This document shows positions 3,437-44,541 of a stretch of DNA of 64,000 nucleotides, piece by piece. Location: assembly GCF_000010345.1 (NCBI RefSeq), contig NC_009663.1:868001-932000 (forward strand). Direction: 5' to 3'. Below the pieces are notes generated by a model. That model saw nothing but the letters and a program-made list of their open reading frames with translations. It was not told where the DNA came from and made no database searches. A program made the translations under genes and the position numbers. This DNA comes from Sulfurovum sp. NBC37-1 (GTDB lineage: Bacteria > Campylobacterota > Campylobacteria > Campylobacterales > Sulfurovaceae). Every line of letters starts with the position of its first letter. The first letter of the stretch is position 1.

Positions 3437-3488
3437 ATAGGTAGATAATATTATTATTAAAATAAACGGTGTGAAAGGTACTCTTTCA

Positions 3489-12053: not shown

Positions 12054-12200
12054 TTAGGGATGCCCTGTATTGTCCTTAAGAAATAATTTTGCCAAATTTC
12101 TATATCATAAAATAATAATGTATTTTCTAATACATTTAGGAAAAGAGGAGGAGAGATTGGAGTGATCTCTCTTGGCAGTACCTGCCAAAAGGAGGAAAAA

Positions 12201-26700: not shown

Positions 26701-27834
26701 TTACCGCTTCCGAAAAATCTCCTTCCCATTCCTATACACCGGATAGGTGTACCCTCCTTTGATAAAGTCCACTTTGGGAGCCGTCAGCTCTTTATAGAGT
26801 TCCGGCCTTCGGTCACGCAGGTAGTTGTATTTTGGTGCCGGATGAGTCATCCCGTAGAAACCCGGGATACAGTCAGCTATGAGCATCGTATCCTGTTCGT
26901 GGTTTGCCGCGACGATGATATCTCCGTGTGGGCCGGTAATGATACTGTTGCCGCGGTAGTGCCACTGGTCTTTGCCTCGTCGTTCATAGCCGGCGCGGTT
27001 GGAGTAGGCGAAGAAAATGTTGTTGGCATAGGCATAAGCAGGGATGAGCGTCTTGGAGATGTCAGGGTAGGGGACATTGCTGCGTTTGCCGTCTGGCAGG
27101 GTATAGTAGTTGTCTGCCGCTGTCGGACCTACGATAAGCTTCGCTCCTTTGAGGGCAAGGATCCTTGAAAGTTCGGGGAATTCACACTCATAGCAGTTGA
27201 GCACGCCGACAGGAAAGCCAAAAAAGTGATAAACCTGGTAGTCGCCGTTGCCAAAGGACCAGTTGTCACGTTCTTGCTGGCCGTAGAGGTGGGTCTTGCG
27301 GTAGCTGTTGAGCAGTTTTCCGTGCTCGTCAATGACAGCGATACTGTCGTAATAAGCCAGAGTCCCATCGGAATGTTTGGCCTTTTCGGCATAGGGTAGG
27401 AGAATAGCAATATTGTTTCTACGCGCCAGTTCTCGCGCCTTGGTGACAGCGGGGCCATCCTTGAACTGTGCGACCTTCTTGACCATCGCAGGACTGAGGG
27501 TATAGCCGGGTATATAAAGCTCCGGGAAAGAGAGTAATTGGATGTGTTTCTCCTTTGCCAGTCGAATGGCGTGCTCCATTCGCTTGAGATTCTTTGCCGT
27601 CGCCCCCTCGCCGCTGACAGCCTGTGCCTGATAGATGCCCAGTCGGATTCCTTTGCCCAATTTCGGCGCTTTTTCATAGACCGAAGTCTTGAACTGGAGC
27701 AACCGATAGCTCTGCATTACAGTCTTGTCGTACTGCGGTGTGCCATCGCATGTTGGGTTTGCTTTGTCTCCGGCTGTTGCAGGGGTAGCGATGACTAATA
27801 GCACAATCATCAAAGTTTTCAATACTCTTTTCAT
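26701..27834 (-). CDS. Exported nitrilase-superfamily amidase
   Basis: A 377-residue carbon-nitrogen hydrolase with a Sec signal peptide (MKRVLKTLMIVLLVIATPATA). The catalytic triad is visible as E105 (SFPELYIPGY), K180 (SYRKTHLYG) and C214 (LNCYECEFPE). The C-terminal block YLRDRRPELYKEL is common in amidase and N-carbamoyl-hydrolase branches of the superfamily. It should cleave an amide or carbamoyl group in the periplasm. Together with the exported decarboxylases it could act on amino-acid amides or on carbamoylated amines; the substrate is not deducible. Single gene. Confidence 0.87.
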   Translation of the reverse strand: MKRVLKTLMIVLLVIATPATAGDKANPTCDGTPQYDKTVMQSYRLLQFKTSVYEKAPKLGKGIRLGIYQAQAVSGEGATAKNLKRMEHAIRLAKEKHIQLLSFPELYIPGYTLSPAMVKKVAQFKDGPAVTKARELARRNNIAILLPYAEKAKHSDGTLAYYDSIAVIDEHGKLLNSYRKTHLYGQQERDNWSFGNGDYQVYHFFGFPVGVLNCYECEFPELSRILALKGAKLIVGPTAADNYYTLPDGKRSNVPYPDISKTLIPAYAYANNIFFAYSNRAGYERRGKDQWHYRGNSIITGPHGDIIVAANHEQDTMLIADCIPGFYGMTHPAPKYNYLRDRRPELYKELTAPKVDFIKGGYTYPVYRNGKEIFRKR

Positions 27835-27876: not shown

Positions 27877-28079
27877 GCGAGGATTGTTTTATGGAAAGTT
27901 ATACCAAATCCGTAAATAGAGATTCAACACTCCGCATTCGCCCTATATTAGTCTGCGTATATTTTAATAAAGCAGGGAGTATACTATTAAGAAGGGAGCT
28001 TGAATAATTTGCTATGAAAATGCAAGAGATCGATAGAGATTTACAGGTTCCAAGAAAAACACAAATGAAAGGAGACGAA

Positions 28080-29825
28080 ATGTCACAGAAGATACACCCA
28101 TTCATTAAAGAGATCGCCAAAGCAACAAAAGAGGGAGTAGTTACCCGCCGTGACTTTTTTCAGTACGCGGCAGCGTTTGGTATGTCGATTTTTACTGCAG
28201 GAAGTCTCATTGGCCTGTCGGCTTCGGAAATCAGTGCCGATACACATATCGACTGGAAAGATCTTGCTTTGGAAAGTCCTTTTGAGGTTAAAAATATTCT
28301 GATCCAAAAAGCTGAAACGGACTGTTCGAAATCCGGTTGCAGTATAGTGAATGCCGGCAGGGGAAATCCCAATTTCCTCAATACGCTGGTGCGTAAATCA
28401 CTGGCACTTTTAACGCTCTTTGCTGCAGATATGGCTGAGAAGAATTCTAAAATTATAGATGTAGGATATCGGCAAAGCAAAGAAGGAATGTACAATGCGT
28501 TAAAGAAATTTCTGGCAAAACACAAATATGATACGGAAGCCGATTTTTTGGGCAGAAGTATAGAATATGCAAAAAATGAGACAGAAATGGATGCCGATGA
28601 ATTGGTTTATGAACTCATGGATGGCGTGCAGGGAGATTTTTATCCGGATCCCCCCCGTATCTTTCCCGCCACTGAAAAAATCGTCCGAAAATATCTTGAC
28701 AGGGTTGTTTTCTCCAATAAGCCCCCTCAGGGCGATTTCCATCTTTTTGTAACAGAGGGGGCAACGGCGGCCATGATCTATATTTTCAACTCTCTGAGAG
28801 AAAATATGGTATTGCTTCCCGGAGACAAGGTGGCTATTGTGACGCCTATTTTCTCTCCATACCTGGAACTGCCAGTACTGAAAGATTATGGTCTGGAATC
28901 GGTCTATATCCGTGGTGATGAAAAAATGGGTTGGCAGATTCCCGATAGTGAAGTGTCCAAGCTGAAGGACCGGAAAGTCAAGGCACTCTATATGGTCAAC
29001 CCGACCAATCCAACCTCGGTTTCACTGAATGCGGATACGGTCAAGCGTATGGCCGATACAATACGGATGCACAATAAGGATATGATCATTATCTCCGATA
29101 CCGTGTATGCCAGTTTTGTCGATGAATTCAATACTTTTGGTAAAGAACTGCCTGAAAATATTCTGGGTGTTTACTCCTATTCAAAATATTTCGGGGTTAC
29201 CGGCTGGCGGCTTGGTGTTGTGATGGTTCACAAAAACAATGTGGTTGACCGGCTCATCAAGAAGCTTCCAAGATCCAAGCAGGCCCGCTTGGACTTCCGA
29301 TATCGTCTGGTCTCTACCAAGCCGAATGAGATCCCATTCTATGAACGTCTGGAAATAGACAGCCGGCAGGTGGCTCTAGCGCATACGGGAGGACTTTCCG
29401 GTCCGCAGCAGGTAGCGATGTCCCTTTTTTCGCTTTATGAGCTCATCGACGAAAATTACAGCTACAAAAAATCTATTATGGGTATTCTCAAAAAACGATG
29501 GTCTGCACTGTTTGAAGCCTTGGATATGCCAGAGCCGGAAGGAAACAACCTGACACGCTACTATGCCCTGATTGATTTGAAAAAAATGGCGGAAAAGAAA
29601 CACGGCAGCGCGTTCGCGGAGCATCTGGTCAAAACGCATCCTCTTGAATTTTTATTCAGACTGGCGGAAGACCACCATACGGTCTGTCTACCCGGTGGAG
29701 GATTTGCCGGACCGAGGTGGTCACTCAGGGTGGCATTGGCCAACATTGACGAAGAAGATTGTCGGCAGATTGGGCATGCGATTGTCTCCGTGATGGACGG
29801 ATACAAAAAATCCATGCCGGTCTAA
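28080..29825 (+). CDS. Aspartate 4-decarboxylase / aspartate aminotransferase-like, Tat-exported
   Basis: A 581-residue fold-type I PLP enzyme of the bifunctional aspartate aminotransferase / L-aspartate beta-decarboxylase family (aspartate to alanine and CO2). Family landmarks include NAGRGNPNFLN, FVTEGATAAMIYIFNSL, VNPTNPTS, the PLP lysine K369 in YSYSKYFGVTGWRLG, and the C-terminal LPGGGFAGPRWSLRVALAN. The unusual part is the N-terminus: a twin-arginine motif TRRDFFQ about 22 residues in, followed by a hydrophobic stretch (YAAAFGMSIFTAGSLIGLSA). It is therefore predicted to be exported folded by Tat. The ATG at 28080 has AAAGGAGACGAA; an in-frame upstream ATG adds only 22 residues. An amidohydrolase gene follows 57 bp downstream. 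Confidence 0.9.
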   Translation: MSQKIHPFIKEIAKATKEGVVTRRDFFQYAAAFGMSIFTAGSLIGLSASEISADTHIDWKDLALESPFEVKNILIQKAETDCSKSGCSIVNAGRGNPNFLNTLVRKSLALLTLFAADMAEKNSKIIDVGYRQSKEGMYNALKKFLAKHKYDTEADFLGRSIEYAKNETEMDADELVYELMDGVQGDFYPDPPRIFPATEKIVRKYLDRVVFSNKPPQGDFHLFVTEGATAAMIYIFNSLRENMVLLPGDKVAIVTPIFSPYLELPVLKDYGLESVYIRGDEKMGWQIPDSEVSKLKDRKVKALYMVNPTNPTSVSLNADTVKRMADTIRMHNKDMIIISDTVYASFVDEFNTFGKELPENILGVYSYSKYFGVTGWRLGVVMVHKNNVVDRLIKKLPRSKQARLDFRYRLVSTKPNEIPFYERLEIDSRQVALAHTGGLSGPQQVAMSLFSLYELIDENYSYKKSIMGILKKRWSALFEALDMPEPEGNNLTRYYALIDLKKMAEKKHGSAFAEHLVKTHPLEFLFRLAEDHHTVCLPGGGFAGPRWSLRVALANIDEEDCRQIGHAIVSVMDGYKKSMPV

Positions 29826-29882: not shown

Positions 29883-30950
29883 ATGAAATTGTTTAATGTG
29901 AGATTATCGTGGATATTAGTGGTTTGGATGGTTGTTCTGACCTATGGGGTCAATGCTTCAGAGAAAGGATCACACTTAAACGTTGAATCAGAGAAAAGCA
30001 AATATGAAGTGACAGATGCCCATTTGCATTATGTGGACTTTTTGCAGAAAAGTGACGGAATAAAAGATCTTCTTAAGATGATGGACCGTACCGGAGTCAA
30101 GCATGCGATGCTCAATGGATTGGCGGTTGTGAAAAAATGGAATGCTGTTGATCCCGTTCAGCCAAAATATTATCTTGCCGATGATTCACGAAGCTATTGG
30201 TACAGTGCTACGGATGTTATTGTTGCAAGAGCGCTTGAAACCCTTTCTGCATCAGAGCGCAGAAGATTCCATCCGTTTATCTGCGGGTTTAATCCTACGG
30301 ATAGGAATGCTGTTGACCACCTGAAGCGGATGTTTGCCCTGTATCCGGATACCTGGGAAGGGATCGGCGAGATCCTGACTCGGCATGATGATTTGACAGC
30401 ATTGACATACGGTGAGCAGGCCAGGGCAAATCATATCGCATTGGATGCTGTATATGATTTCGCCGCCGAGCATGACCTGCCTGTAACCATTCACAGTGAT
30501 ATCAGTTCGGTATGGGTACACAAGCCGCTCTATCTGGAAGAGATGGAAGAGGCTGTCAAAAACCATCCAAAAACCCGCATAGTCTGGGCACATGCCGGAG
30601 CCAGCCGGCGCATTGTGGTGCCCAATCTGGCATCCATTATGGGACGAATGCTCAAAACATATCCCAATCTCTGGATAGACCTCTCCTGGGTTGTCTATCC
30701 AAACTATGTCGCTCCACATGGAAAACCCAGCAAAGAGTGGGTAGCCTTGGTCGAAGAGTTTCCTGACAGATTTATGATCGGTACAGATAATATCGGTCAT
30801 TATGACAATTATGAACAGACCATAAAACGCTATTATGTTTTTCTGGATGCATTGTCTCCAAAAACCGCTCGTCTTGTGGCTGAGAAAAACTTTTTGAGCA
30901 TTCTGCCTTTGAGAGTACGCAAGAAGATAGATGCTTCTATTGCGAAGTAA
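29883..30950 (+). CDS. Exported amidohydrolase (amidohydrolase_2-like TIM barrel)
   Basis: A 355-residue metal-dependent hydrolase with an N-terminal signal peptide or anchor (LSWILVVWMVVLTYGVNAS). Metal motifs are DAHLHY (HxH at 47-49), VTIHSDIS, VWAHAGASRR and FMIGTDNIGH (final Asp). The PF04909 group includes hydrolases and also non-oxidative decarboxylases such as ACMSD, so a decarboxylase role is possible given the neighbours. It is probably co-transcribed with the Tat-exported aspartate decarboxylase. Its last 118 bp overlap the end of the convergent asparaginase gene. Confidence 0.82.
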   Translation: MKLFNVRLSWILVVWMVVLTYGVNASEKGSHLNVESEKSKYEVTDAHLHYVDFLQKSDGIKDLLKMMDRTGVKHAMLNGLAVVKKWNAVDPVQPKYYLADDSRSYWYSATDVIVARALETLSASERRRFHPFICGFNPTDRNAVDHLKRMFALYPDTWEGIGEILTRHDDLTALTYGEQARANHIALDAVYDFAAEHDLPVTIHSDISSVWVHKPLYLEEMEEAVKNHPKTRIVWAHAGASRRIVVPNLASIMGRMLKTYPNLWIDLSWVVYPNYVAPHGKPSKEWVALVEEFPDRFMIGTDNIGHYDNYEQTIKRYYVFLDALSPKTARLVAEKNFLSILPLRVRKKIDASIAK

Positions 30951-32020
30951 ATATTTTCTTTAGCCTTTGGGGGGTTCATATTGGGCTGTCCAAGTGCTAT
31001 CATCAGGAGAAGCCTGGCTTTGTACGGGCTCAGGTCTCCAGCCAGAAGTGTGCCCGCTTTAAGAAGGGAGGCACCGCCCCCTTCATCACCGTACAGCGGA
31101 TAGACACCTCCGTGCCGAACCCTGCTGGCGATCACCAGAGGTACATTTTTATTTAGAGCATATTTGCAGGCTTTGAATACAGACTGATTTACATTGCCTG
31201 CACCGACGCCAGCCACTACCAATCCTTTGGCACCATGATCGACAGCATATCGGATCAATGATCCGTCATCTCCCGCGTAAGAGTAGATCAACGGAATATC
31301 CGGCAATGTTTTTGGTGCGGACAGCTTTTTTTTGGCAGGTGCCGCATTGTAACCAATGATCCGATTGCCGACAATATAGCCGAGATACCCATGTCCTCCG
31401 GAATCAAATGTCTGCACATTGGTCGTATTGTCTTTACAGACATACCTGGCACTGTTGATGTATTGGTTCATGGTGACGGTCACTCCCCATTTTTCAGCTT
31501 TGGATGAAGCTGCCTGAAATACTGCATTGTAAAGATTGGCAGGGCCGTCAGGGCTCAGGTCGGAGTTGCTGCGCATCGAACCGACGAAAACAACCGGTTT
31601 TTGGGAATGGAGCGTTGTTTCGAGAAAATAAGCTCCCTCGGCCATCGTATCGGTACCGTGGGTTACCACAACGCCTGCTACTTCCGGGCGTCGTAACACA
31701 GCATCAACTTTCAGACTCAAGTTTCTCCATATTTTGGGTGTCATCTGTGAGCTGTCAATATTGCAGAACTCCACTGTTTCAATTTTGGCTATTTTACCAA
31801 GACCCGGTACAGCTTCCAGCAAGTCTTTTCCTGATACAGCCGGAACGACACCACCCGACACAGGGTCATATTTCATAGCAATGGTTCCTCCGGTAGTGAC
31901 CACTACGACTACGGGCAGGATATCTTTTGTGTCCGGTTTTAAATTTTTTTGTGCATGCAGTTGTGTCCACAAAGCGAGCAATGGCAAAATCAATTTTAGC
32001 AGTGAATGGAATTGTCTCAT
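30833..32020 (-). CDS. Type II L-asparaginase, exported
   Basis: A 395-residue periplasmic asparaginase (asparagine to aspartate and ammonia). Signal MRQFHSLLKLILPLLALWTQLHAQ; the two catalytic threonine regions are VVTTGGTIAMKYD and VVTHGTDTMAEGAYFLE; also FVGSMRS and the conserved IALGQPN end. Start follows a perfect AAAGGAGGTAACG. About 39 C-terminal residues beyond the family's usual end are antisense to the amidohydrolase gene, as if the original stop was lost. Its product is the substrate of the exported aspartate decarboxylase. Last gene of the eight-gene minus-strand run 41636-30833. Confidence 0.92.
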   Translation of the reverse strand: MRQFHSLLKLILPLLALWTQLHAQKNLKPDTKDILPVVVVVTTGGTIAMKYDPVSGGVVPAVSGKDLLEAVPGLGKIAKIETVEFCNIDSSQMTPKIWRNLSLKVDAVLRRPEVAGVVVTHGTDTMAEGAYFLETTLHSQKPVVFVGSMRSNSDLSPDGPANLYNAVFQAASSKAEKWGVTVTMNQYINSARYVCKDNTTNVQTFDSGGHGYLGYIVGNRIIGYNAAPAKKKLSAPKTLPDIPLIYSYAGDDGSLIRYAVDHGAKGLVVAGVGAGNVNQSVFKACKYALNKNVPLVIASRVRHGGVYPLYGDEGGGASLLKAGTLLAGDLSPYKARLLLMIALGQPNMNPPKAKENIYFAIEASIFLRTLKGRMLKKFFSATRRAVFGDNASRKT

Positions 32021-32057: not shown

Positions 32058-32993
32058 TTATTTAAAACCGATAGATTTTTCCCACTCTTTCAAATTCATT
32101 TTCTTTAGTTGCCCAAAGCCCTCTTTGGGGATCGCATCTTTCGCCAGTACGACATAAGGGGCAACGGTCAATGCTGTGCCTACCTCACCGGGCTTCATGA
32201 TGACATAGGCATAGCTGATATACGATCGTTCGTACAAAACACTTTGGTCTTTACCGCAGGCAGCAACACTCCAGAGAACAGATTTTCGGTGTTTTTGGAG
32301 AAATGCATCCAAGTCCTTATCATTGGCATTTTTTGTCCAGACTCCGGCATCTTCGATAAACAGAGAGGCATCTTTGGTGCGGTCTTTTGCAATATTGATA
32401 ACAATGTAAGACCAGACACCATATGATTCATTTTTGGCAGCGTCGGGTTCCCCTTTTTTTGGCCGGTACGATGTGACGCTTTTGTTGGCGCAAATGGTAT
32501 GGGCACCGGGAACCAGAGGAAAACGGCGTTTTCTCTCGGTACCAAAGAGCGCTTTACCCGCCTCAATCAAAGGGGCACCGTCATAAACCTTCAGGTCGGA
32601 GCCATCATACTGTTTGACGGTAAAAAGAGGTTTTTCTTTTTTCTCTTTTATCGTTTCGGAAACAGCAAGGTCATACCCCCATATCTGTCCTGCCAGGCCG
32701 GAAAAAGATGAAGCTGTCAGCATATTGATCTGACCGACATAGGCATCATTTGCTTCCGCCCGATCATAGGCGACAATGTTGTCGAGAAGCATATCATCCG
32801 TTTTTTTAACGGTACCGGCTGAGACTTTCAGCACGGATACATAACCAAGACCCTCCGCACCTGGATTTCCATATCCGTCACAATACTGTTTGAATGGGCT
32901 TATGGCATCTTTGTTGATACTCTCCTGTGCCTGGATAGAACTGAAAAGAGTTCCTGTCAGTACACAAACGGTTAAAATAGTAGAAAACTTCAT
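32058..32993 (-). CDS. hdcA: Pyruvoyl-dependent histidine decarboxylase, exported
   Basis: A 311-residue proenzyme of the pyruvoyl histidine decarboxylase family (histidine to histamine and CO2). Strong family blocks are AISPFKQYCDGYGNPGA, YVSVLKVSAGTVKKTDD, YVGQINMLTASSFSGLAGQIWG, GAHTICANKS, LFIEDAGVWTKN and YVIMKPGEVG. The self-cleavage Ser-Ser is at 95-96, matching the known Ser81-Ser82 site, so it should split into beta and alpha chains with an N-terminal pyruvoyl group. Unlike the classical cytoplasmic enzymes, it begins with a Sec signal (MKFSTILTVCVLTGTLFSSIQA). The start follows AAAGGATCAAAG. Its first four bases overlap the stop of the Lnt-like gene. No histidine/histamine antiporter adjoins. 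Confidence 0.93.
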   Translation of the reverse strand: MKFSTILTVCVLTGTLFSSIQAQESINKDAISPFKQYCDGYGNPGAEGLGYVSVLKVSAGTVKKTDDMLLDNIVAYDRAEANDAYVGQINMLTASSFSGLAGQIWGYDLAVSETIKEKKEKPLFTVKQYDGSDLKVYDGAPLIEAGKALFGTERKRRFPLVPGAHTICANKSVTSYRPKKGEPDAAKNESYGVWSYIVINIAKDRTKDASLFIEDAGVWTKNANDKDLDAFLQKHRKSVLWSVAACGKDQSVLYERSYISYAYVIMKPGEVGTALTVAPYVVLAKDAIPKEGFGQLKKMNLKEWEKSIGFK

Positions 32994-34498
32994 CTTTGAT
33001 CCTTTTTTTGTTTTTTGAAATGATTCCAAACTGCCAAGAAAAACAGCAGTATAAGTACAAACATAGCAATATATGCAAGCAAATTGCCGATGTGAGTATA
33101 GAGGGTGTCCGTTCTCTTAACAGGCAGAGAAGCGATCAATATACTCTCATCGTCTCCAAATGCAGTCATAGCTGCACGGATCTGACCGAGATTGTCAAAT
33201 CCCATTGAAGTAGCCTCATTTGCCGATCTGAACAGGGAAAACCCTCCCCCTACAGCGTGAATTCGTGCCATCAGAGTATGCCGTATCAGCATACCGCGCC
33301 AGTCAAGACCGGGGAGCAGAACCAGGTCGACTCCGAGCCTTGCCTGTGTTAACGATATTTGCGGGAAATCGTAATCATAACAGATAGCTCCCGCCATTTT
33401 ACCATATTTTGTCCTGATAGCTTTCAGTGGGGCACGACCGGGAACACTTCCTTCCCCCGGGACGGGGTGGTGCTTGAGATATGTTTCGGCGATGGTACCG
33501 TCATCTCTCAGCCAGGTGAATTTGTTCTTCATCTTATACAGTTCGCTCTGTTCTTCTTTCGGGAGCAATAGAGCATAGGCTGCAACGATTGCAATATGAT
33601 GCTTTTTCGCCAGCCTGGAAAGTGTCCCCAGCAATGCCTTTTCCCCCTTGGTTGAAACGATTGTCGATACTTCTCCCCAGACGGCTATGTCGGCTCCCTT
33701 CGCGGCGGCTTTGCGTGTGAGTTCTATCAGTCTTTGTGTATTCTGCAGAACATCGGGATCTTCGGGGTTTGGCAGTGCCTTGCTTACTGTCTGACCATTC
33801 GTGATGCCGGCAACAAGTATATGCTTGCCTTGGGGAACGGTACTGAGGCGTAAGTCACCCCATATATTCAGTCCAATAAAAATGATGACAAAGAGCACAA
33901 CGGATATTTTTATATTTGCGAAATTTCTCCGGAGAATGAAGAAAGCTCCCAAAACGGCAGCCCAGGACATCAGTGCCGATATGCCCAGAAATCCAAAAAG
34001 TGACGCTGTTTGGATAAGGGGGAGATTATATACCTGTGTATTAGCAAGAGATCCCCATACGCCGAACGGTGTATAAAATGCTTGCAGATATTCCAAGCTT
34101 ACTATAATGGCCGGAAAGGCAATGATGCTGGCAGTGTCATCAGTCCATTTCCGGATATAATCCCATATCAAAAAGGCAAGATAGTATCGTAGGCCTGTCA
34201 CTACCCCAAACATAATGGATACCGGCAAAGAGATCATTATGGGGTCTGATACTGACTTCGTGAATGTCAATACAGCTCCTACAACAAGGGTAAGCAGGAG
34301 CCATAGACGGCTTTTAAACTCATGATAGAGCGTGACATAGAGCAAGAATGGTATAAGCATAAACCAGCCGAATACTCCTGCGCCGCCACGCATATCAGAG
34401 CTAATCATCAAAAAAGAACCGATAATCAGCAATGAACTCCCGTGAAAGAACCGGTTATTTTTCAAAGATGTATAATCTGATTGTATATGGCTGTCCAA
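32990..34498 (-). CDS. Membrane nitrilase, apolipoprotein N-acyltransferase (Lnt)-like
   Basis: A 502-residue protein with about six to seven TM helices in residues 20-215, a periplasmic nitrilase domain (about 228-465), and a final TM (about 472-492), the layout of Lnt. The triad is E276 (VWGEVST), K342 (TYLKHHPVPGEG) and C373 (GAICYDYDFP). The KHHPVPGEG block resembles the KRHLVPFGE of Lnt. It starts with TTG behind AAGGTAGGTG. Its place inside the decarboxylase operon suggests a specialised N-acyltransferase or amidase rather than the housekeeping Lnt. It overlaps the histidine decarboxylase gene by four bases. Confidence 0.8.
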   Translation of the reverse strand: MDSHIQSDYTSLKNNRFFHGSSLLIIGSFLMISSDMRGGAGVFGWFMLIPFLLYVTLYHEFKSRLWLLLTLVVGAVLTFTKSVSDPIMISLPVSIMFGVVTGLRYYLAFLIWDYIRKWTDDTASIIAFPAIIVSLEYLQAFYTPFGVWGSLANTQVYNLPLIQTASLFGFLGISALMSWAAVLGAFFILRRNFANIKISVVLFVIIFIGLNIWGDLRLSTVPQGKHILVAGITNGQTVSKALPNPEDPDVLQNTQRLIELTRKAAAKGADIAVWGEVSTIVSTKGEKALLGTLSRLAKKHHIAIVAAYALLLPKEEQSELYKMKNKFTWLRDDGTIAETYLKHHPVPGEGSVPGRAPLKAIRTKYGKMAGAICYDYDFPQISLTQARLGVDLVLLPGLDWRGMLIRHTLMARIHAVGGGFSLFRSANEATSMGFDNLGQIRAAMTAFGDDESILIASLPVKRTDTLYTHIGNLLAYIAMFVLILLFFLAVWNHFKKQKKDQR

Positions 34499-34508
34499 AA
34501 TTATTCAC

Positions 34509-35237
34509 CTACCTTGAGTTATCAGGCTTATTGCCTCGGCATAGATGTCGCTGTACCCAGACGGTACTTGCTATAAGCGGTATCAGCATAAACCAGGTAC
34601 CGAACAGTGCAATGAAATATCCTGCGATCGGTGCAGGGGAGATTGCCCCCGCGACTAGCGTAATAGTCAGTACGCCAAAAGGTGAAAAAAGTACGAACCA
34701 GCGAGGAAATATTGTTTTTCCACTGAGTAAGGCTACAGCGTGCCAGATTGCCCCCAAATTAAAAGCGATCATAGCTGTCAGATCACCCATGACGAAGTGT
34801 TCAGTGATGTAGGTCTGTGCCGTATTAAAAAAAAGAGGATCACTACTGCCGACAGCTTCTTTGGCCTGTTCCAACACACTCAAAAATGCCCATCCGGCAT
34901 GCTGAATTCCACCGATCATCACCAGTGAATAAGCAAGCAGAAGAAGCGGTACGGTGCCCAGCCAAAATCCGGCACGCCGCATTCCGACCCACCAAGGCAG
35001 ATAGGAGAGTGCATAAATCGGATAGAGCCACCCGGCAGTCTGTGCCATCATCACCATCCAGTGCGGACGCCCTCCCGCGGTACTGACAACATCAAGAACG
35101 GCCGGGGAAAAATAGGCTGCCCCGCTAAGCTGAGAGGAGTAACCGTATATATAGTCACAGACACCATTCCAAAGCAGAAGAATCGATACCGATACACCTA
35201 GAATACGAAGTGCCCGGCAGTCCACCATTTTTTCCAT
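34509..35237 (-). CDS. Multi-pass membrane protein of unknown function
   Basis: A 242-residue protein with about six to seven hydrophobic helices and no motif that I recognise with certainty. The second loop has GRPHWMVMMAQTAGWLYPIYALSYLPWW; a His lies in ITEHFVMGDL and another in GAIWHAVALL, which could bind a ligand or metal. It ends 10 bp before the Lnt-like gene and is co-oriented with the decarboxylases, so a transport or accessory role in the same process is plausible but unproven. Confidence 0.7.
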   Translation of the reverse strand: MEKMVDCRALRILGVSVSILLLWNGVCDYIYGYSSQLSGAAYFSPAVLDVVSTAGGRPHWMVMMAQTAGWLYPIYALSYLPWWVGMRRAGFWLGTVPLLLLAYSLVMIGGIQHAGWAFLSVLEQAKEAVGSSDPLFFNTAQTYITEHFVMGDLTAMIAFNLGAIWHAVALLSGKTIFPRWFVLFSPFGVLTITLVAGAISPAPIAGYFIALFGTWFMLIPLIASTVWVQRHLCRGNKPDNSR

Positions 35238-35308: not shown

Positions 35309-37150
35309 TTACTGATTTCCCTTCATTACCCCATAAGCTTCACCCATCAGCATATGCTTATAGGTATTTGTGTCGTTGGGAGTTTTAGATGCTGTGATTT
35401 CAAATCCTGCTTTGTCTTGAAACAGTATGACAAAATCAGACCCGCCAAAGAGGAAATTTCCAAGCATATCACCCTTTTTATGAACAATACCGGGTCGGAC
35501 ATCCCCTTCGAAATTGACAGAAGAGACCTGAGCCATCCCCATAGGGATCAGTGCTACCAGACCATACTTTCCTGTATCTACCACCACAACCCCTCTGGTT
35601 TGGGTAAACTGCCAGCCTGTGGAGTCTATGGGGGCATATTTGCCTTGCTTTGCATCCCAGACTACTTCCAGTGAGACATTTTTCACAATATTTTTGACCT
35701 CTTTTATCTCTCCTCTCACAGCAAAATGGTAGCGGTGATAGTCGTTGACATCGAGGAAGGTATGTGTCAGAACTCCGTTGGCAAATGCATCTTTGTAGGG
35801 GCTGTCTTCACCAACCAGATCTTTGACACTGTAGTAGGTTGCAAGCTTGACTTTCAATCCGCCTTCTACTTTGATCCTGGAGTCTTTGTCAATAGCCCAG
35901 GTACCCTGAGGGACAGAATCTGCCGGGGCAACGACGATCGATGGATCGGCAGGTGTGGCAATCGGTCTCATTTCGGGAGACTTCAGGTAGCGGCTGAAAA
36001 AGTCGTTGAAAGTTTTCCAGTTGCTTGCGGGTTCATACCATCCGGTATCCAAACCAAATCGTGGGTCCTTATAGAACTCCTCATAGGTTTTTTTACTCCA
36101 AGACTTCTCTGTATCGAGAAACATTCCCCAGTCGTTGGCAAACGCTCTCGTCCAGGTAGAGAAAGGCTCATAGTATTGGAGCGTATTGTTGTAAAGCCCT
36201 TTTCCTTCAAGCTCTGGGAGGGGTTGGTCGATCAGAAAATAGAAGTAACAGAGACTCTGCATAATCTGCTCACGCAGAAGATGCTTGGGGTGCTTGAGAA
36301 CCTCTGACGGAATCAATTCGACAGCTTTGTCAAGATAGGCATAATAGTCATTGAGATTCTGTACAGGATTGGTTTTGGTATCCGGGTTGACGACTTTTGC
36401 CTTTGCGATCGATTTTTCCAAAAGCCTTTTGAGTTCAGGATTCTTTTTTAGCAGAGTGATAAGCTTTTGGGTAATTGGCTTGTGCGCCTGAGCATCTGTT
36501 GATTTTTTGATGGGATCCACATAGATAAAACTAACAAACCCAAGCTGAGATAGCACCATACCGTATTTTTTGGTGATATGCAGAAATTTGATGTTGTATG
36601 TCATATCACCTACCTGTTCCAGATGCCTGATCGACAACTCATGTTTGAGTGATTTTGTCAACTGTGCTTTTGCCTTCTTTCTTACCTCTTCCTGTGCTAC
36701 TCTCTTTTTGTGGTAGACAAATTCATATTCGGCAGCAAAGCCTCCGATTTTTTTGCCGCTTTTAGGATCTTTGGCCCAGACCCGGCCGACACCGGCTACG
36801 ACCGTATCGCCTTTGACGCCGCTGGCTTTTGCCATGATTGATTCCAGTACAGCACCATGGTGAAACTGTTTTTTAGCTTCCTTCAGTGAAATCTCATACG
36901 ATTGGGGAGGAAGCACGGAGGTGTAGTACATCACATTGAAATTTTCTATGCCGGCATCCTGAAGCGCCAGGTCATAAGAGAATGTTTCGTAGGGATCGGG
37001 TGGTATGCCGTCATTGGACTGACCAGCACCGGTTGTGGCAAAATAGGCGGTGGGGATTCTAACCCCCAGCGATGTGTCGGCATATACTACACTCGAACTT
37101 ATCATTCCAATCAGGAAAACGATACCTGTAAACAGTTTTAACTTTTTCAT
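35309..37150 (-). CDS. Exported fusion: pyruvoyl arginine-decarboxylase domain + PSD-like decarboxylase domain
   Basis: A 613-residue exported protein (signal about 1-24, MKKLKLFTGIVFLIGMISSS). Residues about 28-210 match pyruvoyl-dependent arginine decarboxylase: IPTAYFATTGAG, SYDLALQDAGIENFNVM, the pyruvoyl-forming YYTSVLPP (Thr77-Ser78 in place of Ser-Ser), the conserved Glu in AEYEF, and a C-terminal GFVSFIY strand. After a helical linker, residues about 375-585 match the phosphatidylserine decarboxylase family: FNDFFSRYL, VAPADS, DYHRYHFAVRG, DTGKYGLVALIPMGMAQVSSV, and the processing Gly-Ser in FLFGGSDF (570-571). The ATG at 37150 follows AAGGAAAG. Both halves belong to self-processing pyruvoyl families. 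I know of no described fusion of the two. Likely substrates are amino acids rather than lipids. Confidence 0.85.
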   Translation of the reverse strand: MKKLKLFTGIVFLIGMISSSVVYADTSLGVRIPTAYFATTGAGQSNDGIPPDPYETFSYDLALQDAGIENFNVMYYTSVLPPQSYEISLKEAKKQFHHGAVLESIMAKASGVKGDTVVAGVGRVWAKDPKSGKKIGGFAAEYEFVYHKKRVAQEEVRKKAKAQLTKSLKHELSIRHLEQVGDMTYNIKFLHITKKYGMVLSQLGFVSFIYVDPIKKSTDAQAHKPITQKLITLLKKNPELKRLLEKSIAKAKVVNPDTKTNPVQNLNDYYAYLDKAVELIPSEVLKHPKHLLREQIMQSLCYFYFLIDQPLPELEGKGLYNNTLQYYEPFSTWTRAFANDWGMFLDTEKSWSKKTYEEFYKDPRFGLDTGWYEPASNWKTFNDFFSRYLKSPEMRPIATPADPSIVVAPADSVPQGTWAIDKDSRIKVEGGLKVKLATYYSVKDLVGEDSPYKDAFANGVLTHTFLDVNDYHRYHFAVRGEIKEVKNIVKNVSLEVVWDAKQGKYAPIDSTGWQFTQTRGVVVVDTGKYGLVALIPMGMAQVSSVNFEGDVRPGIVHKKGDMLGNFLFGGSDFVILFQDKAGFEITASKTPNDTNTYKHMLMGEAYGVMKGNQ

Positions 37151-37265
37151 TTTCTTTCCTTCTATCAATAGTTTAGGTTTCATTTGAAACTGAAACCAAC
37201 TCTGAACTGCCTCAAAAGGAGTTTTGATCTTGAGTTCCTTTCTATATCATTATAGCCAGAATTTA

Positions 37266-38543
37266 CTAGTTGCTATGCCAATTCTCTTCTATCCAGTTGA
37301 GAATTTTCTCATTGGATATCATGATAGCTCCCATCTGACAATGCTCTTCAGCACCTTCATCTTTTGTAAAGAGCAGATATGTCTTGGGGCATCTCAGGGC
37401 GTCATAAAGCTCTTTTGCTTGTCCGGGAAGATCTTTATCTCCTTCGGAATCAACCACCAGAGTTTTGCATCGTATCTTTGTTGCCCTCTCTTTCATATTG
37501 TAGGGCTTTAATTTTTTAATTAAGTCCGTCGGAGATTTGGCTCCAAAAGTAAACATACCGTTTGCAAAGAACCAGCCTACATCAACATCTTTGTTCATAA
37601 TTTCCATAATTTCCTTATTGAACTTTATAGATGCCTTTTTGTTGTTGAGAATTTTCTTTATGTCTGGTGGGGATTTTTTGATGACATTTGCATAAAAATC
37701 ATATACTCCTCCATTTGCAACACATAGGTTAATGCGATGCTCGAAAGAGACAGCCCGTGGAGCAAGATAGCCTCCGAAACTAATGCCTATGAGCCCGATC
37801 CTCTTTGGGTTGACTTCTGGAAGAGTCAGAGCAAAATCTACCACAGGTGTCACTACACTTTCCCAGTTTGGACGAAACGGTATCTTCTGTACACGAATCA
37901 CTTCACCCTGTCCCGGTCCTTCAAATAAAAGAACATTGAATTCTCTTTCAACCGCAAGATGACCAATTTCAAAATAGAGCTCTTCTGCTGTGCCGTCAAA
38001 TCCACTATGGATGATCAAAAGTGGTCTCTTTTTGCCGGAGTTGTCCACAAGACAGAGGTAACCTGGCAGAGTAGTTCCCTCAAAGGGTATCTTCACAAAC
38101 TTTATAGGTTTTTTGGAGAGTTTTGCAGCTTTGAGGAAAGTATTACGGCTCTTTTTCCAAGTCTTGACAATCCGTGGATCATTGGGATTAGTATGAAGGA
38201 AAAATTCCGCAGTGCGGTAGTAGTTGGAGGAGCGAAAATATGCCTCTTTTGCACTTATCATGTGCCCTTTTGATAGAAACTTGTCCGCTCTCTTTTCAAG
38301 GCGCTTTGCAGTCGCTAACCACTCTTTGTACCAGCTTTCATTATCGCTTTCCTGAATGCGGCGAACTGTACTCAAACACTCTCCGATATCTGCACCCCCT
38401 GTGCTGCTGTAGCCTATAGTTCTGAGCGTCTGAAAGGAATATTGTGGATCCTTAAAGATGCATTCCACTCCCTGAACGAAAACAGTAGAAAAAAGAATGC
38501 TCAAAGCTAAAAAAAGGATCCGTAAATTTAGCATTATAATCAT
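37266..38543 (-). CDS. Exported alpha/beta hydrolase (FrsA / pseudooxynicotine-hydrolase-like), copy 1
   Basis: A 425-residue serine hydrolase with a signal peptide (LRILFLALSILFSTVFVQG). A helical N-terminal cap region (KGHMISAKEAYFRSSNYYRTAEF) precedes the alpha/beta fold. The nucleophile is S255 in GISFGG, the acid probably lies in VVDSEGDKD, and the His is in GAEEHC. Related cytoplasmic enzymes cleave C-C or ester bonds. It overlaps its upstream paralogue by four bases (ATGA). The pair may have different substrates, since the nucleophile elbows differ (GISFGG versus GISNGG). Confidence 0.82.
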   Translation of the reverse strand: MIIMLNLRILFLALSILFSTVFVQGVECIFKDPQYSFQTLRTIGYSSTGGADIGECLSTVRRIQESDNESWYKEWLATAKRLEKRADKFLSKGHMISAKEAYFRSSNYYRTAEFFLHTNPNDPRIVKTWKKSRNTFLKAAKLSKKPIKFVKIPFEGTTLPGYLCLVDNSGKKRPLLIIHSGFDGTAEELYFEIGHLAVEREFNVLLFEGPGQGEVIRVQKIPFRPNWESVVTPVVDFALTLPEVNPKRIGLIGISFGGYLAPRAVSFEHRINLCVANGGVYDFYANVIKKSPPDIKKILNNKKASIKFNKEIMEIMNKDVDVGWFFANGMFTFGAKSPTDLIKKLKPYNMKERATKIRCKTLVVDSEGDKDLPGQAKELYDALRCPKTYLLFTKDEGAEEHCQMGAIMISNEKILNWIEENWHSN

Positions 38544-39856
38544 TCCTTTGATTGATTCCCAAAGAGATCATCAAGCCAGTCAAAGACCACTTCAGCCATC
38601 AGGGTTCTATTCTCGCCGATACAGTGAGAAGAGGCCCCTTCATTTTCCGGAGTGATCACCAGTGTTTTGTTCTTGGTTCCTACTTTGTCCATAAACTCTT
38701 TTTGCTGCCGTTCAGTCTCTTTGTTGGCATACTCTCCCGCCCCGACAAGATCCAGTACCGGACTGGTAACCTTGGCTGGATCAAACTGAAACCCTTTGTT
38801 GGCTTCGATTTGCCCTTTGACATTTTCAGGGTCAAGCCCCCAGCGCCAAGTCACTGCAGAGGTCACCGCCTTCTTGAACGGCGGCCACTGGTCGATCTGT
38901 TTTTGCGTATCTTTGGAAAAAGGCATCTCTTTGAACATACGGTAGTTGTCGACAACGGCACTGCTGACAATAATTGCCTTGATCCGCTTTTCTACTGTCG
39001 CCGCACGCGGAACGAAGTAGCCGCCGTTACTGATACCGAACACGGCCAGTTGTTCAGGATCTACTTCGGGGAACTTCAAAACAACATCCAAAACAGCTTT
39101 CATCTGGGTTTCGGTATCTTTTCTGAAAAACTCTCCCTGGGCGGGGAGCATTCCCTGGCCGGGCAGGTCCACGGTGATAAAATTGTATCCGCGCTTGATC
39201 GTCTGAGGTTCAATGTAAAAGACAAGGTCCTCCATAAAAGTCTCGCCGCCACCTATCATCAAAAGCGTCTTGCGAGGTTTACCGTCTTTTTTGACGGGGT
39301 GGTAATACCCGGGGAGCTTTGTTTTTTCAAAAGGAACTTCAAAGTAGGTCATTGGAGGGTCGTACAGTTTTCCGGCTTCTTTCATGCAGAAGCGGGTCTT
39401 TTTGCCAAGTGTGTTGAACTTGGGATTGTCCGGCAGTATAGAGACCAGTGCCGTTCTGTAATAATTGGAGGCTTTCAGATACGCTTCACGGGCAGTAGCC
39501 TTATGGCCTTTTTCAAGAGCGGCTTTGGCACGGGACTCTTTCCTCTGAGCCATCTTTTCCCATTCGTTTTGCCAGCTTTTCGGATCGCCATCTGTAATAT
39601 TGCCGGCAGCATAAAATGCTTCTCCAAGTTCGGCACCGCCGTTCGATAAGCTGCCAAGGAGCCACTGAAAAGCGAAATCCATCTCTTCATCTTCAAAATG
39701 GTAACTTACATAGGAACGGTGTGCGTCATAGTTCTCTTTCTGTGCCGATATTGCCGATGCGTCTTTGTTCCTCATAGGAGCCTCCTCTTTGGCATACACC
39801 GAACTGTGCAGTGATGCAAAGAACAGGCAGATACCAAGTGCATTTAAAAACTTCAT
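38540..39856 (-). CDS. Exported alpha/beta hydrolase (FrsA / pseudooxynicotine-hydrolase-like), copy 2
   Basis: A 438-residue paralogue of the next gene, with signal peptide MKFLNALGICLFFASLHSSVYA. The shared cap is KGHKATAREAYLKASNYYRTAL, the nucleophile S276 in GISNGG, and the His in SSHCIGEN. The two are alike along their whole length and arose by tandem duplication, but have diverged far (they align mainly at motifs). It sits 37 bp downstream of the C69 dipeptidase. Confidence 0.82.
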   Translation of the reverse strand: MKFLNALGICLFFASLHSSVYAKEEAPMRNKDASAISAQKENYDAHRSYVSYHFEDEEMDFAFQWLLGSLSNGGAELGEAFYAAGNITDGDPKSWQNEWEKMAQRKESRAKAALEKGHKATAREAYLKASNYYRTALVSILPDNPKFNTLGKKTRFCMKEAGKLYDPPMTYFEVPFEKTKLPGYYHPVKKDGKPRKTLLMIGGGETFMEDLVFYIEPQTIKRGYNFITVDLPGQGMLPAQGEFFRKDTETQMKAVLDVVLKFPEVDPEQLAVFGISNGGYFVPRAATVEKRIKAIIVSSAVVDNYRMFKEMPFSKDTQKQIDQWPPFKKAVTSAVTWRWGLDPENVKGQIEANKGFQFDPAKVTSPVLDLVGAGEYANKETERQQKEFMDKVGTKNKTLVITPENEGASSHCIGENRTLMAEVVFDWLDDLFGNQSKE

Positions 39857-39893: not shown

Positions 39894-41636
39894 TTAATCC
39901 CCCGGGTGCATCTTCTTGGGCTTTTCGTAACGGATCGGACCATTCTTCCACTCGGAGCGTTTGTACCAGGCTTTGGGATAGCCAACTTCCTGTGCCATCT
40001 TCCCCGGTTCATTGACATAACCGTCACTGTATTTGGCTACCAGCTTCCAGGCAAGTTTCCACCAGGTACGATAGACATTCATCGCCGTATTGCGTGAAAA
40101 TTCACTGAGCATTGCTTTGGCTTGTTCCGGATCTTTCTTATAGACTTCAAGAGCAGACTTTTCGATTGCTTTGGTCCCTTCTATGGCCGCAAGTTCCAAC
40201 TCGTTCTGCTTCTCTTTGATGTCCTGGATAATGTAGCTGTATTTGATCGCAGCCCAGTTGGCTACGAAGTTAAAAGCCCACCAGACACTTTCTTGATCAA
40301 ACTTGTCACTGAAACCGGTATAGTACGGCTTCGGCACAGGGTCATGTGCACCTACATAAAAGGGTGTGATAACAGAACTCATTGGCTCATCCGGAGCAAA
40401 CCAAAACAGTCCACCGACAGGGTCAGGCAGCCAACTGCGCGCTTGGGCCACATAGGTATATCCCGAACGGTAAATAGAGAGAGGACGCTCCCAGGCACCT
40501 TTACGTCCGGTCAGTTTGCCTGTATCACCGCTGGCATCCATCGGGCCTGTATAACGATAGGGGTTTTCAAAAGGCCCGGCAGTGATACCCTTGCTTTGAT
40601 CAAATTCCGTCCCCTGATAATAATCTCTATAAAGGTTTATGACATCCTGTACACCCAGTTTTTTATCAGGTTTGATGGAGAAGGGGTACTTCCTGGTAAA
40701 ACCGTCTTTGACCCAAGGGGAGAGTTTGAGTGAAGGTGCGATCTTGGATTGTAGCCTCCAGACACGATGGAGTGAGTAGTAGGGGTGGCTGTACTCTCCT
40801 TCGCTGACAGTACGCAGCCAGTCAAGTTTTCCTTTTTTGGGATTCCACCATTGATGCTTTTTTGCGACATCAAAAAGATTTTTGGAATACATCATATCAG
40901 GATCATTCGGATCGACTTCACGGATACGGAACTCGTTGGCCGCGACGAAGATCTCGCCGTCGGGAACTTTTTTGGCTACCCATAGTCCCTTGCTTTTGTC
41001 CGGGCTGGGTGCCATCTCAAAGACCCATCCCTCTTTGGTATCAGCAACAGGCAGCACTTCCCCCGTACCATAATAGCCATAGGTGTCGATCAGCTCCCCC
41101 ATAAGCTTGATGGCGCATCTGGCTGTTTTGCAGCGCTCCATTGCGACACGAGCCAATTCGGCACTGTAAAATATTCTTTTACCAGGCTCGGGCTCCAGCG
41201 TCACCTTGGAACCATTGGTCGCTTCGCCCATCATCAACTGATGCTCATTCATCAATCCATAGCTGCCATCCATATAGGCATAGGTGTGTGCTACTTGGGG
41301 GATGAAGCCCAGAGGGATGCTTTGGGGCATATCATTGTCCACATAGATAGGTCCTCTATGAGTACCAATATATCGCCTCAGGACATTGGCATTGTATTCC
41401 GGTCTGCTACCCAGTGAAGAGGGATCATAATAAACAGGTCGTGTTGAGCCCTCTTTGTGATCTGCGGCCGGGACATAGACCAGACGGTTATCGAACATTT
41501 CGCTGTCATCAGAGTGCGCGACAAAGACGGAACCGTCCTTGCTGGCTCCCTTTGTGATGATCATTGTAGTGCAGGAGAAGAGAGGGATTGAGCTGAGCAG
41601 TGTGAAGAGAGTCAGCTGTCTGATAGATACTTTCAT
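39894..41636 (-). CDS. Exported C69-family dipeptidase
   Basis: A 580-residue Ntn-hydrolase of peptidase family C69 (PepD/U34 type). The catalytic nucleophile Cys22 (SCTTMIITKGASKDGSVFVAHSDD) directly follows the signal sequence (MKVSIRQLTLFTLLSSIPLFS), so signal cleavage could expose the Cys as N-terminus. Other family blocks are YGLMNEHQLMMGEATNGSK and GWVFEMAP. It should hydrolyse dipeptides in the periplasm, supplying free amino acids to the downstream asparaginase and decarboxylases. First gene of the minus-strand run. The FSC context is also a poor lipobox; lipidation would block the nucleophile's amino group. Confidence 0.87.
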   Translation of the reverse strand: MKVSIRQLTLFTLLSSIPLFSCTTMIITKGASKDGSVFVAHSDDSEMFDNRLVYVPAADHKEGSTRPVYYDPSSLGSRPEYNANVLRRYIGTHRGPIYVDNDMPQSIPLGFIPQVAHTYAYMDGSYGLMNEHQLMMGEATNGSKVTLEPEPGKRIFYSAELARVAMERCKTARCAIKLMGELIDTYGYYGTGEVLPVADTKEGWVFEMAPSPDKSKGLWVAKKVPDGEIFVAANEFRIREVDPNDPDMMYSKNLFDVAKKHQWWNPKKGKLDWLRTVSEGEYSHPYYSLHRVWRLQSKIAPSLKLSPWVKDGFTRKYPFSIKPDKKLGVQDVINLYRDYYQGTEFDQSKGITAGPFENPYRYTGPMDASGDTGKLTGRKGAWERPLSIYRSGYTYVAQARSWLPDPVGGLFWFAPDEPMSSVITPFYVGAHDPVPKPYYTGFSDKFDQESVWWAFNFVANWAAIKYSYIIQDIKEKQNELELAAIEGTKAIEKSALEVYKKDPEQAKAMLSEFSRNTAMNVYRTWWKLAWKLVAKYSDGYVNEPGKMAQEVGYPKAWYKRSEWKNGPIRYEKPKKMHPGD

Positions 41637-41947: not shown

Positions 41948-43171
41948 ATGAACAGAATATTGAACCGTTTAATCAAGCTAATAGGTATTGCGCTCTTGGC
42001 AAACACCCTATCGCTCTATGCAGCTCATCTGGATGCAAAGAACCCTTGTTATCAGTCGATTAAAAAAATAGATGAAACATACAAAAAGGATAAAGTATTC
42101 AAATTATTAATGGACCAATCTTTTACGCATATGGTTGAAGCTCCGGAAGGCTATATGCGTGGCGGAAACCCCTGGATAGGCAAAAGCTACAAAGACCTGC
42201 CGCCTTTTCTTGAAGAGTGGTGCGAGTTTCTGCCAAAAGCTATAGGGAGTGGGGATGACGGCTTGAAATATATTCAGGAGATGGATATGTTCAGCTATAA
42301 AAACCCTTTTGCCAAAACATTGTTTCAAAGCAAAACAGGAATGAAGCTTTTTGGTAACTATATGAAAGAGTATGGCCACTTCATGGATACACCGGCCTCC
42401 GGAAGATATATTGCCGAATGGCTTAATGATGACAGGATCGAAAAAGAGGATTATGCCTTGCCTGATCCCAAAGCGGATACTGGCGGGTTCAAAACTTTTA
42501 ATCAATTTTTTTCAAGAAGATTGAAAGATCACAAAGAGAGCCGTCCCCAGACGATGCCAAATCGTGACTATGTTATCACAGCACCTACAGACTGCATTAT
42601 CAATTCTATTCCCCAGGTTTTGATCGATGAAAACACACTGATTGCAACCAAGGGACACCAGAAACTCAATCTCAAACAGATGTTTGATGATTCGAGATAC
42701 TATAAAAAGTTTTTGGGCGGTACGGCAGTATCATGTGTCCTGATGCCAAATACCTATCACCACTACCATTCACCCATAGATGGAAAGATAGTTGAATCCA
42801 AAATTATCAGGGGTGCCCTGTTGGGCATGGACGACTTCCCCTCCTTTGTGCCAAAATACGGCAATGTCGGCTATTACGGTACGGATTTCAATCAGTTCAG
42901 CAGCTATAAACGGGGATACTTTATCGGAGATACCGGTAAATACGGATATGTCGGCATGGTGGCAGTCGGCTTGAGCAATATCGGTTCTATCGTTTTCAAT
43001 AAGAAGTATAAAAATATGACCAGGCCGGTTCCCGTCAAAAGAGGGGATGAATTAGGTTATTTTCTGTATGGAGGATCACTCTTCATAATGTTCTTTGAAA
43101 AAGGGAAGTTCAAATCGGACGCCATCAGAGTCCGGCTCGGAAATCAGATAGGTACTTTTGATACTCCATGA
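41948..43171 (+). CDS. Exported phosphatidylserine-decarboxylase-like pyruvoyl enzyme
   Basis: A 407-residue PSD-family protein with a Sec signal (LIKLIGIALLANTLSLYAA). Family marks are FNQFFSRRLKDHKESRP, VITAPTDC, NTYHHYHSPIDG (270-279), DTGKYGYVGMVAVGLSNIGSI, and the processing Gly-Ser in FLYGGSLF (G376-S377), where cleavage would create the pyruvoyl group. True PSDs face the cytoplasm; this one is predicted periplasmic and has a long extra N-terminal region (30-175). Related PSD-like enzymes, such as PsiD in Psilocybe, decarboxylate amino acids. The stop overlaps the start of the porin gene by four bases, so the two are translationally coupled. Confidence 0.87.
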   Translation: MNRILNRLIKLIGIALLANTLSLYAAHLDAKNPCYQSIKKIDETYKKDKVFKLLMDQSFTHMVEAPEGYMRGGNPWIGKSYKDLPPFLEEWCEFLPKAIGSGDDGLKYIQEMDMFSYKNPFAKTLFQSKTGMKLFGNYMKEYGHFMDTPASGRYIAEWLNDDRIEKEDYALPDPKADTGGFKTFNQFFSRRLKDHKESRPQTMPNRDYVITAPTDCIINSIPQVLIDENTLIATKGHQKLNLKQMFDDSRYYKKFLGGTAVSCVLMPNTYHHYHSPIDGKIVESKIIRGALLGMDDFPSFVPKYGNVGYYGTDFNQFSSYKRGYFIGDTGKYGYVGMVAVGLSNIGSIVFNKKYKNMTRPVPVKRGDELGYFLYGGSLFIMFFEKGKFKSDAIRVRLGNQIGTFDTP

Positions 43172-44541
43172 GATATATGGCAATTGGGGGACTGCTTGCA
43201 GGAGGGGCAATTTTCCTGTCAGCCGGTGATACATTATCATCTGCCTTTGAAGAGACTGTATTCAAAGGGCAGTTACGCTCCTACATGATGAAGAGGGGGT
43301 ATGATGAACTGGTAGAGGACTCCATGGGTATTTTTAAAGTACGACACTCATCTCACAAAGCTTCCAATGCAATAGGTGGATACTTTACGTTTGAGACGGG
43401 TTCTTTCTATCATTTGAGTGCCGGAGCCACTTTTTATACATCACAACCCCTTTTTCATAATCCGCCAAGTGAAGGCGGACTTCAACTGCTAAAAGATGAT
43501 CAGAGTGGTTACAGTGTCCTGGGTGAAGCATTTGTAAAATGGGCATATGGCGAGACAGTACTCAAGGTGGGAAGACAACGATTGAATGAATATCAGTTTT
43601 TGTCAGACAATGATATCCGTATGACACCTTATACGTATGAAGCGGTGATCCTGGAGAACAGGGATTATGAAAATATTACATTGCGTGCAGCTATCGTATC
43701 TGGTGTCAAGACGTTGGTTTCCACAACATATATAGATTTTGTCAACGCATCTAAAGATCTTCTCAAAGAGGAAACTGTTGACAGGAATCCGATACGGGGT
43801 GACTACAATCCGGCTCATTATGACAGCAATGGAAACTACATAGGGCCCCCAAAGAACCTTTATTTAGCTTCGATAGCCTATAAAGAGAAACAAACGGATC
43901 TGGAACTTTGGAACTATTATGTATCGGATTTTGTCAATTTTGTATATGCTGTCGGCTCTTATACTTTTCAAGCAGGTCGTTTTATCAATAGTCTCGGAGT
44001 TCAGTTTGTCAAGCAGGACGATGTCGGAGCGCATGTTGCCGGCAGTATCGATACCTATAGTTACGGTGCCAAACTGACAAGTGTCTATGATACATTTACT
44101 TTTACTTATGCGTTCAATAAAACAAAATATGATGAAAATTCTCTGGACGGCGGCAGCATTATCGATATGTGGGGTGCCAACCAACTTTACAGTGGTTTGA
44201 TGTATAACGGAGCCGACCAGGGAGGCACAATAAGCAATGTCATCACCGTGGAATATGATTTTCCGTTTTACGGCCTGAACTTCTCACTGTATGCCGGTAA
44301 ATTTGATCTGCCAAACAAATTGACAGATATTTTTGCTGATCAGGATAATCATGAATACGATATGATCATAAAATACAGACCCGAATGGAATAAGAAACTA
44401 CAGTTCAAAATAGAAGCCGCCTATATCGATTTTGATACAAATTATGATTTCAGAGCCTATGAAGATCTGCACGGATTTAATTTTCTTCATGTCTATGATG
44501 ATATTACAGACATGAGGTTTATTGTCAATTATTCTTTTTAG
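43168..44541 (+). CDS. Outer-membrane porin (OprD/Opr-like)
   Basis: A 457-residue barrel protein: signal region MRYMAIGGLLAGGAIFLSAG, early FKGQLRSYMMKRG, then many amphipathic strands (ATFYTSQPLF, LKVGRQRLNEYQFLSDNDIRM, TDLELWNYYVSDF) and a C-terminal FIVNYSF. The pattern fits the substrate-specific Opr/OprD porins of Campylobacterota. ATGA overlap with the PSD-like gene suggests that it brings the decarboxylase's substrate through the outer membrane or lets the product out. Confidence 0.82.
   Translation: MRYMAIGGLLAGGAIFLSAGDTLSSAFEETVFKGQLRSYMMKRGYDELVEDSMGIFKVRHSSHKASNAIGGYFTFETGSFYHLSAGATFYTSQPLFHNPPSEGGLQLLKDDQSGYSVLGEAFVKWAYGETVLKVGRQRLNEYQFLSDNDIRMTPYTYEAVILENRDYENITLRAAIVSGVKTLVSTTYIDFVNASKDLLKEETVDRNPIRGDYNPAHYDSNGNYIGPPKNLYLASIAYKEKQTDLELWNYYVSDFVNFVYAVGSYTFQAGRFINSLGVQFVKQDDVGAHVAGSIDTYSYGAKLTSVYDTFTFTYAFNKTKYDENSLDGGSIIDMWGANQLYSGLMYNGADQGGTISNVITVEYDFPFYGLNFSLYAGKFDLPNKLTDIFADQDNHEYDMIIKYRPEWNKKLQFKIEAAYIDFDTNYDFRAYEDLHGFNFLHVYDDITDMRFIVNYSF

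Follow-up and report, generated by a model that had tools for sequence, protein, structure and literature searches.

Histidine decarboxylation has been placed in the cytoplasm, and an antiporter has therefore been deemed necessary for it (PMC8465708). The genome survey in that study counted histidine decarboxylase (HDC) genes only when an antiporter gene was located within three genes, so that an exported HDC without an antiporter lies outside the survey by construction. The same work describes an aaxB/antiporter/hdcA three-component system for Bacteroides (PMC8465708). Other close points of comparison are HdcA of Lactobacillus 30a, the chlamydial aaxABC system (PMC2720952), and the L-aspartate 4-decarboxylase AsdA with AspT. 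Our literature search for exported or periplasmic HDC, which had most subscription journals outside its scope, found nothing relevant.

The window analyzed here, a 64,000-nt stretch of the Sulfurovum sp. NBC37-1 chromosome, carries an HDC gene with the following features.

32058..32993, minus strand: hdcA, encoding the 311-aa proenzyme of a pyruvoyl histidine decarboxylase, with a Sec signal at its N-terminus
32928..32993, minus strand: codons for residues 1-22, the Sec signal peptide, with cleavage predicted between IQA and QES (home-made scoring script)
32706..32711, minus strand: S95-S96 codons, predicted self-cleavage site, from alignment to the Lactobacillus 30a beta/alpha chain ends
33000..33005, minus strand: Shine-Dalgarno-like AAAGGA, 6 nt upstream of the hdcA ATG

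The decarboxylase and its signal

The preliminary description of this DNA reported near-complete family motifs and a TASSFSG processing site, and both are confirmed by profile matches, fold, and catalytic residues. The product matches Pfam PF02329 (HDC) over residues 24-311 with 442 bits (E 1.2e-132) and NCBIfam TIGR00541 over its full length with 415.8 bits, the curated cut-off being 346.65. A PDB sequence search returned the 1hq6/1pya chains (E 3e-54) as the sole solved relatives by sequence, and the AlphaFold2 model has 1PYA as its nearest solved fold (E 8e-23), followed by pyruvoyl arginine decarboxylase. In the alignment, the window HDC keeps the equivalents of Y62, D63, E66, S81, S82, F83, and E197 of Lactobacillus 30a HDC, which include the catalytic residues D63, E66, and E197 of that enzyme. 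The D53/D198 pair, the pH switch tied to the pH response of the Lactobacillus 30a enzyme, is also conserved. The processing motif reads TAS(95)-S(96)FSG, and S96, the predicted source of the pyruvoyl group, is invariant across the 88 aligned rows. Judged by family, fold, and residues, the product is a full, bona fide pyruvoyl histidine decarboxylase. It shares fold, chain-split site, catalytic residues, and mature length with HdcA of Lactobacillus 30a (TIGR00541, 1PYA), but it carries a Sec signal, and its gene lacks the adjacent HdcC antiporter, HdcB, and HisS. No homologue of the maturation protein HdcB was found within the window, and many other HDC loci also lack one.

Signals were called with a home-made scoring script rather than SignalP and, in two cases, by eye. 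The window HDC begins with MKFSTILTVCVLTGTLFSSIQA, followed by QES after the predicted cleavage, and has a positive n-region, an uncharged h-region, and I/A at positions -3/-1. With this simple script, its signal score was reached by 0.7% of 5000 shuffles of its own 60 residues, whereas no window from the interior of soluble proteins scored as high (334 windows). Residues 1-23 are disordered in the AlphaFold2 model (pLDDT <50), and the chain is mostly >90 thereafter. The earlier claim of a clear signal peptide is thus borne out by script score, layout, and disorder.

The signal would have been an artifact if the true start lay downstream of it, for example at the DAISPF block, as the same description had allowed. 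The first in-frame start codon is the ATG at codon 1 and the next is GTG at codon 54, inside the conserved core, so that a start at DAISPF is ruled out. A TTG 12 codons upstream of the ATG could only extend the n-region. As a sequence feature, the Sec-type signal is therefore real, with n-, h-, and c-regions at the only possible start, and its features argue against a cytoplasmic location of the window HDC.

Gene neighborhood

The genes around hdcA that matter for its interpretation are as follows.

39894..41636, minus strand: signal-bearing C69-family dipeptidase, with which the putative operon begins
38540..39856, minus strand: FrsA-like alpha/beta hydrolase with signal (paralogue)
37266..38543, minus strand: FrsA-like alpha/beta hydrolase with signal
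35309..37183, minus strand: signal, AaxB-like pyruvoyl arginine decarboxylase domain (YTS/VLPP site), and PSD-type domain (FGGS)
34509..35237, minus strand: membrane protein, 242 aa, without Pfam match
32990..34498, minus strand: apolipoprotein N-acyltransferase-like (LNT-like) membrane CN-hydrolase, overlapping the hdcA start by 4 nt
30833..32020, minus strand: signal-bearing type II-like L-asparaginase, 37 nt past the end of hdcA
28014..29825, plus strand: aspartate 4-decarboxylase (TIGR03801 family) with Tat motif TRRDFFQ
29883..30950, plus strand: Amidohydro_2 family enzyme with signal
26701..27834, minus strand: N-carbamoylputrescine-amidase-like CN hydrolase with signal
41948..43171, plus strand: second PSD/PsiD-like decarboxylase (YGGS site), with a signal-like N-terminus seen by eye and missed by the script
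43168..44541, plus strand: OprD-family outer-membrane porin, overlapping the PSD/PsiD-like gene 41948-43171
56559..57635, plus strand: glutaminase with signal, followed by an OprD-family porin and an AspT-like transporter

Eight genes on the same strand occupy 41636 to 30833, and hdcA is number seven in this row; the successive gaps are 37, -4, 82, 71, 10, -4, and 37 nt, and from this spacing, we infer that the eight genes form one transcript. According to the scoring script, all eight products carry a signal or membrane segments. Four genes show a pattern in which Sec signals are found on the self-cofactored pyruvoyl enzymes and a Tat signal on the PLP enzyme, and TatC is encoded in the genome. 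We hypothesize that Sec for pyruvoyl and Tat for PLP enzymes may be a general rule.

Like the Bacteroides aaxB/antiporter/hdcA system (PMC8465708), the locus pairs genes for an AaxB-like arginine decarboxylase and an HDC, and a C69 peptidase gene is located nearby in two Bacteroides loci (L064 and L067), as in the window operon. The window differs in that both enzymes bear signals, a PSD domain is joined to the arginine enzyme, and there is no antiporter. Signal-less AaxB-like enzymes encoded beside HDC in Bacteroides and Cetobacterium are the nearest to the arginine decarboxylase domain. At the level of gene content, the operon resembles a Bacteroides three-component system that does without the antiporter and exports its two enzymes. 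With chlamydial aaxABC (PMC2720952), it has in common a porin gene in the neighborhood and a Ser-derived pyruvoyl arginine enzyme, but the window enzyme is predicted to be exported and the AaxC antiporter is absent. The aspartate 4-decarboxylase belongs to the same family as AsdA (TIGR03801), and an AspT-like gene is present in the window; in contrast to AsdA/AspT, the enzyme has a Tat-type signal and the AspT-like gene is located 30 kb away with the glutaminase.

The fusion protein is a single 624-aa chain with potentially two self-cleaving pyruvoyl sites in an exported protein, and a search of 298 Campylobacterota genomes returned no full-length relative of it. The second PSD/PsiD-like decarboxylase (41948-43171) is distinct from the likely housekeeping PSD encoded elsewhere in the genome (C1:1105738).

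Signals and antiporters among HDC relatives

The HDC family was found in only one of 397 sampled Campylobacterota genomes, that of Sulfurovum sp. NBC37-1, which rules out HDC as a common gene of this phylum. A scan of genomes from 84,980 species yielded 106 relatives, of which 80 were kept, and the final alignment has 88 rows. The preliminary description had assigned the characterized enzymes to Gram-positive bacteria. Gram-positive members do exist, but the family is not confined to them, as the scan also places it in Gram-negative phyla, among them Bacteroidota, Fusobacteriota, Pseudomonadota, and Planctomycetota, in agreement with PMC8465708.

Nor is the window HDC unique in having a signal. 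Signal-like N-termini occur in 11 of the 88 rows, the window included and a Methylocystis plasmid HDC (L004) being judged by eye, which leaves ten other signal-bearing homologues; they are distributed over Bacteroidota, Pseudomonadota, Planctomycetota, Lentisphaerota, Nitrospirota, and others. A phylogeny of HDCs with and without signals, proposed earlier as a check, indicates that the trait changed at least three times: the 65-row tree needs four changes, and supported branches force three. The window HDC falls in a clade of five rows (support 97/89) that are all signal-bearing, the other members being labelled Bacteroidota, Pseudomonadota, and Myxococcota/Deltaproteobacteria. Further searches around the Lentisphaerota locus and around the Planctomycetota locus, each covering approximately 390 genomes, yielded almost no extra signal switches.

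The probable signal of the Methylocystis HDC (L004, 7881-8864) was missed by the script. This protein forms a long branch grouped with a Nitrospira HDC (L089), and its D198 equivalent is Leu.

An adjacent antiporter was defined as a match to an iterated APC profile within 1.8 kb on the same strand, and only loci with enough flanking sequence were scored. The iterated profile replaced a first one that missed a GadC-like gene beside one HDC (L012) and several antiporters of the second HDC clade. An adjacent APC antiporter was present at 46 of 68 signal-less HDC loci and at none of the 10 signal-bearing ones (Fisher p 5e-5 on rows, ignoring shared ancestry). Among diderm rows alone, the counts were 13 of 32 and 0 of 10 (Fisher p 0.018, ignoring shared ancestry). 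Twenty-two signal-less loci also lacked an adjacent antiporter. In the second HDC clade, signal-less enzymes have a same-strand antiporter in six of seven scorable rows, the seventh (L077) having one on the other strand, and the antiporter is absent in all six signal-bearing rows. Across the three to four independent switches, the antiporter never changed in the same direction as the signal, and on average it changed in the opposite direction in 2.5 of 3; with so few switches, a sign test cannot reach significance (median p 0.25). No HdcC-like antiporter was found within the window, where no APC protein matched the iterated profile, and the two APC permeases of the genome are encoded approximately 150 kb from hdc and do not match the antiporter profile either. 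The earlier proposal that export removes the need for an antiporter thus gains comparative support from these counts and from the alternation in one subclade, but it lacks significance given the few switches. The comparison is consistent with an export signal substituting for the antiporter, repeatedly and in unrelated bacteria.

Exported AaxB-like or AsdA partners are mostly absent from the other genomes with signal-bearing HDCs, and the arginine decarboxylases of those genomes are of the ordinary short type with no evident signals. The whole island is therefore not a conserved unit, since the other signal-bearing loci do not share its partners. In one Planctomycetota locus (L055), genes for a signal-bearing HDC and for an aspartate 4-decarboxylase of Tat type (51-53% identical) stand in a row with a C69-like gene; its HDC falls in the other clade, not in that of the window HDC. 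The aspartate 4-decarboxylase homologue of this locus (10911-12611) has an RR motif and follows the exported HDC.

Proposed function and alternatives

We consider it likely that the locus encodes an exported, antiporter-free HDC within an amino-acid-processing operon, with periplasmic proton consumption as the likeliest benefit. The HDC would be exported by Sec, cleave itself at S95-S96 following export, and decarboxylate histidine beyond the cytoplasmic membrane, yielding histamine and CO2. Histidine and histamine would have to cross only the outer membrane, via porins such as the nearby OprD-family ones, so that no histidine/histamine antiporter would be needed. The enzyme would act as part of the exported operon, next to which a PSD-like enzyme and, via Tat, an aspartate 4-decarboxylase would also be exported, and the export route would match cofactor need, with pyruvoyl self-makers using Sec and the PLP enzyme Tat. 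Together with the exported asparaginase and glutaminase, periplasmic proton consumption and the release of amines and ammonia would lead to local alkalinization, the simplest benefit. Periplasmic decarboxylation builds no proton-motive force, unlike the cytoplasmic cycle, and protons are consumed where the reaction happens. The benefit is uncertain, because the proton-motive gain of the cytoplasmic cycle is forgone. We infer location, activity, and benefit of the HDC from sequence, and the system is best read as an antiporter-free, extracytoplasmic counterpart of the known histidine and arginine decarboxylation systems that is probably proton-consuming.

The same genes may instead serve scavenging, in which periplasmic breakdown of peptides and amides would supply nitrogen and carbon, with decarboxylation as one catabolic step. 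This is possible though rather unlikely: close by are genes for a C69 peptidase, an asparaginase, a glutaminase, amidases, the binding protein of a dipeptide-type ABC transporter, and an AspT-like carrier, but decarboxylation loses carbon, and without further degradation histamine and agmatine make poor carbon sources; no gene for histamine degradation was noticed in the operon. It seems improbable that the amines are themselves the products, with periplasmic histamine, agmatine, and aromatic amines being released as signals or N-acylated by the LNT-like enzyme. The gene of this enzyme shares 4 nt with hdcA, its product appears by eye to keep the E, K, and C positions of apolipoprotein N-acyltransferase, and the PSD domains match PsiD-like tryptophan decarboxylases; however, the asparaginase and dipeptidase in the operon suggest degradation, and the structure model of the LNT-like protein, built from a single sequence, is poor. 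We know of no case of amine N-acylation by LNT. The LNT-like protein is also the only PF20154 match in the genome, which leaves room for it to be either the housekeeping enzyme or a separate one.

It is very unlikely that the N-terminus is merely signal-like and non-functional, with the HDC staying in the cytoplasm and histidine and histamine using other carriers. The two APC permeases encoded elsewhere in the genome could be named in its favor, but they do not match the antiporter profile. The neighboring products are moreover predicted to be exported, and the supported clade of five has the hydrophobic N-terminus whereas 77 relatives lack it.

If the exported HDC works, the premise that decarboxylation is cytoplasmic and needs an antiporter fails, Gram-negative histamine producers are undercounted, and a proton-consuming amino-acid reaction can sit in the periplasm instead of the cytoplasm. 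Chances are about even that there is a wider diderm class of extracytoplasmic, antiporter-free decarboxylation, in which pyruvoyl enzymes would leave by Sec and PLP enzymes by Tat, the signal would replace the antiporter, and surveys requiring an antiporter would miss the members.

Elsewhere in the window, a plus-strand gene at 3471-5756 encodes NMT1/THI5-like and SBP_bac_3 binding domains fused to GGDEF, and it adjoins genes for an adenine deaminase and a purine-type permease.
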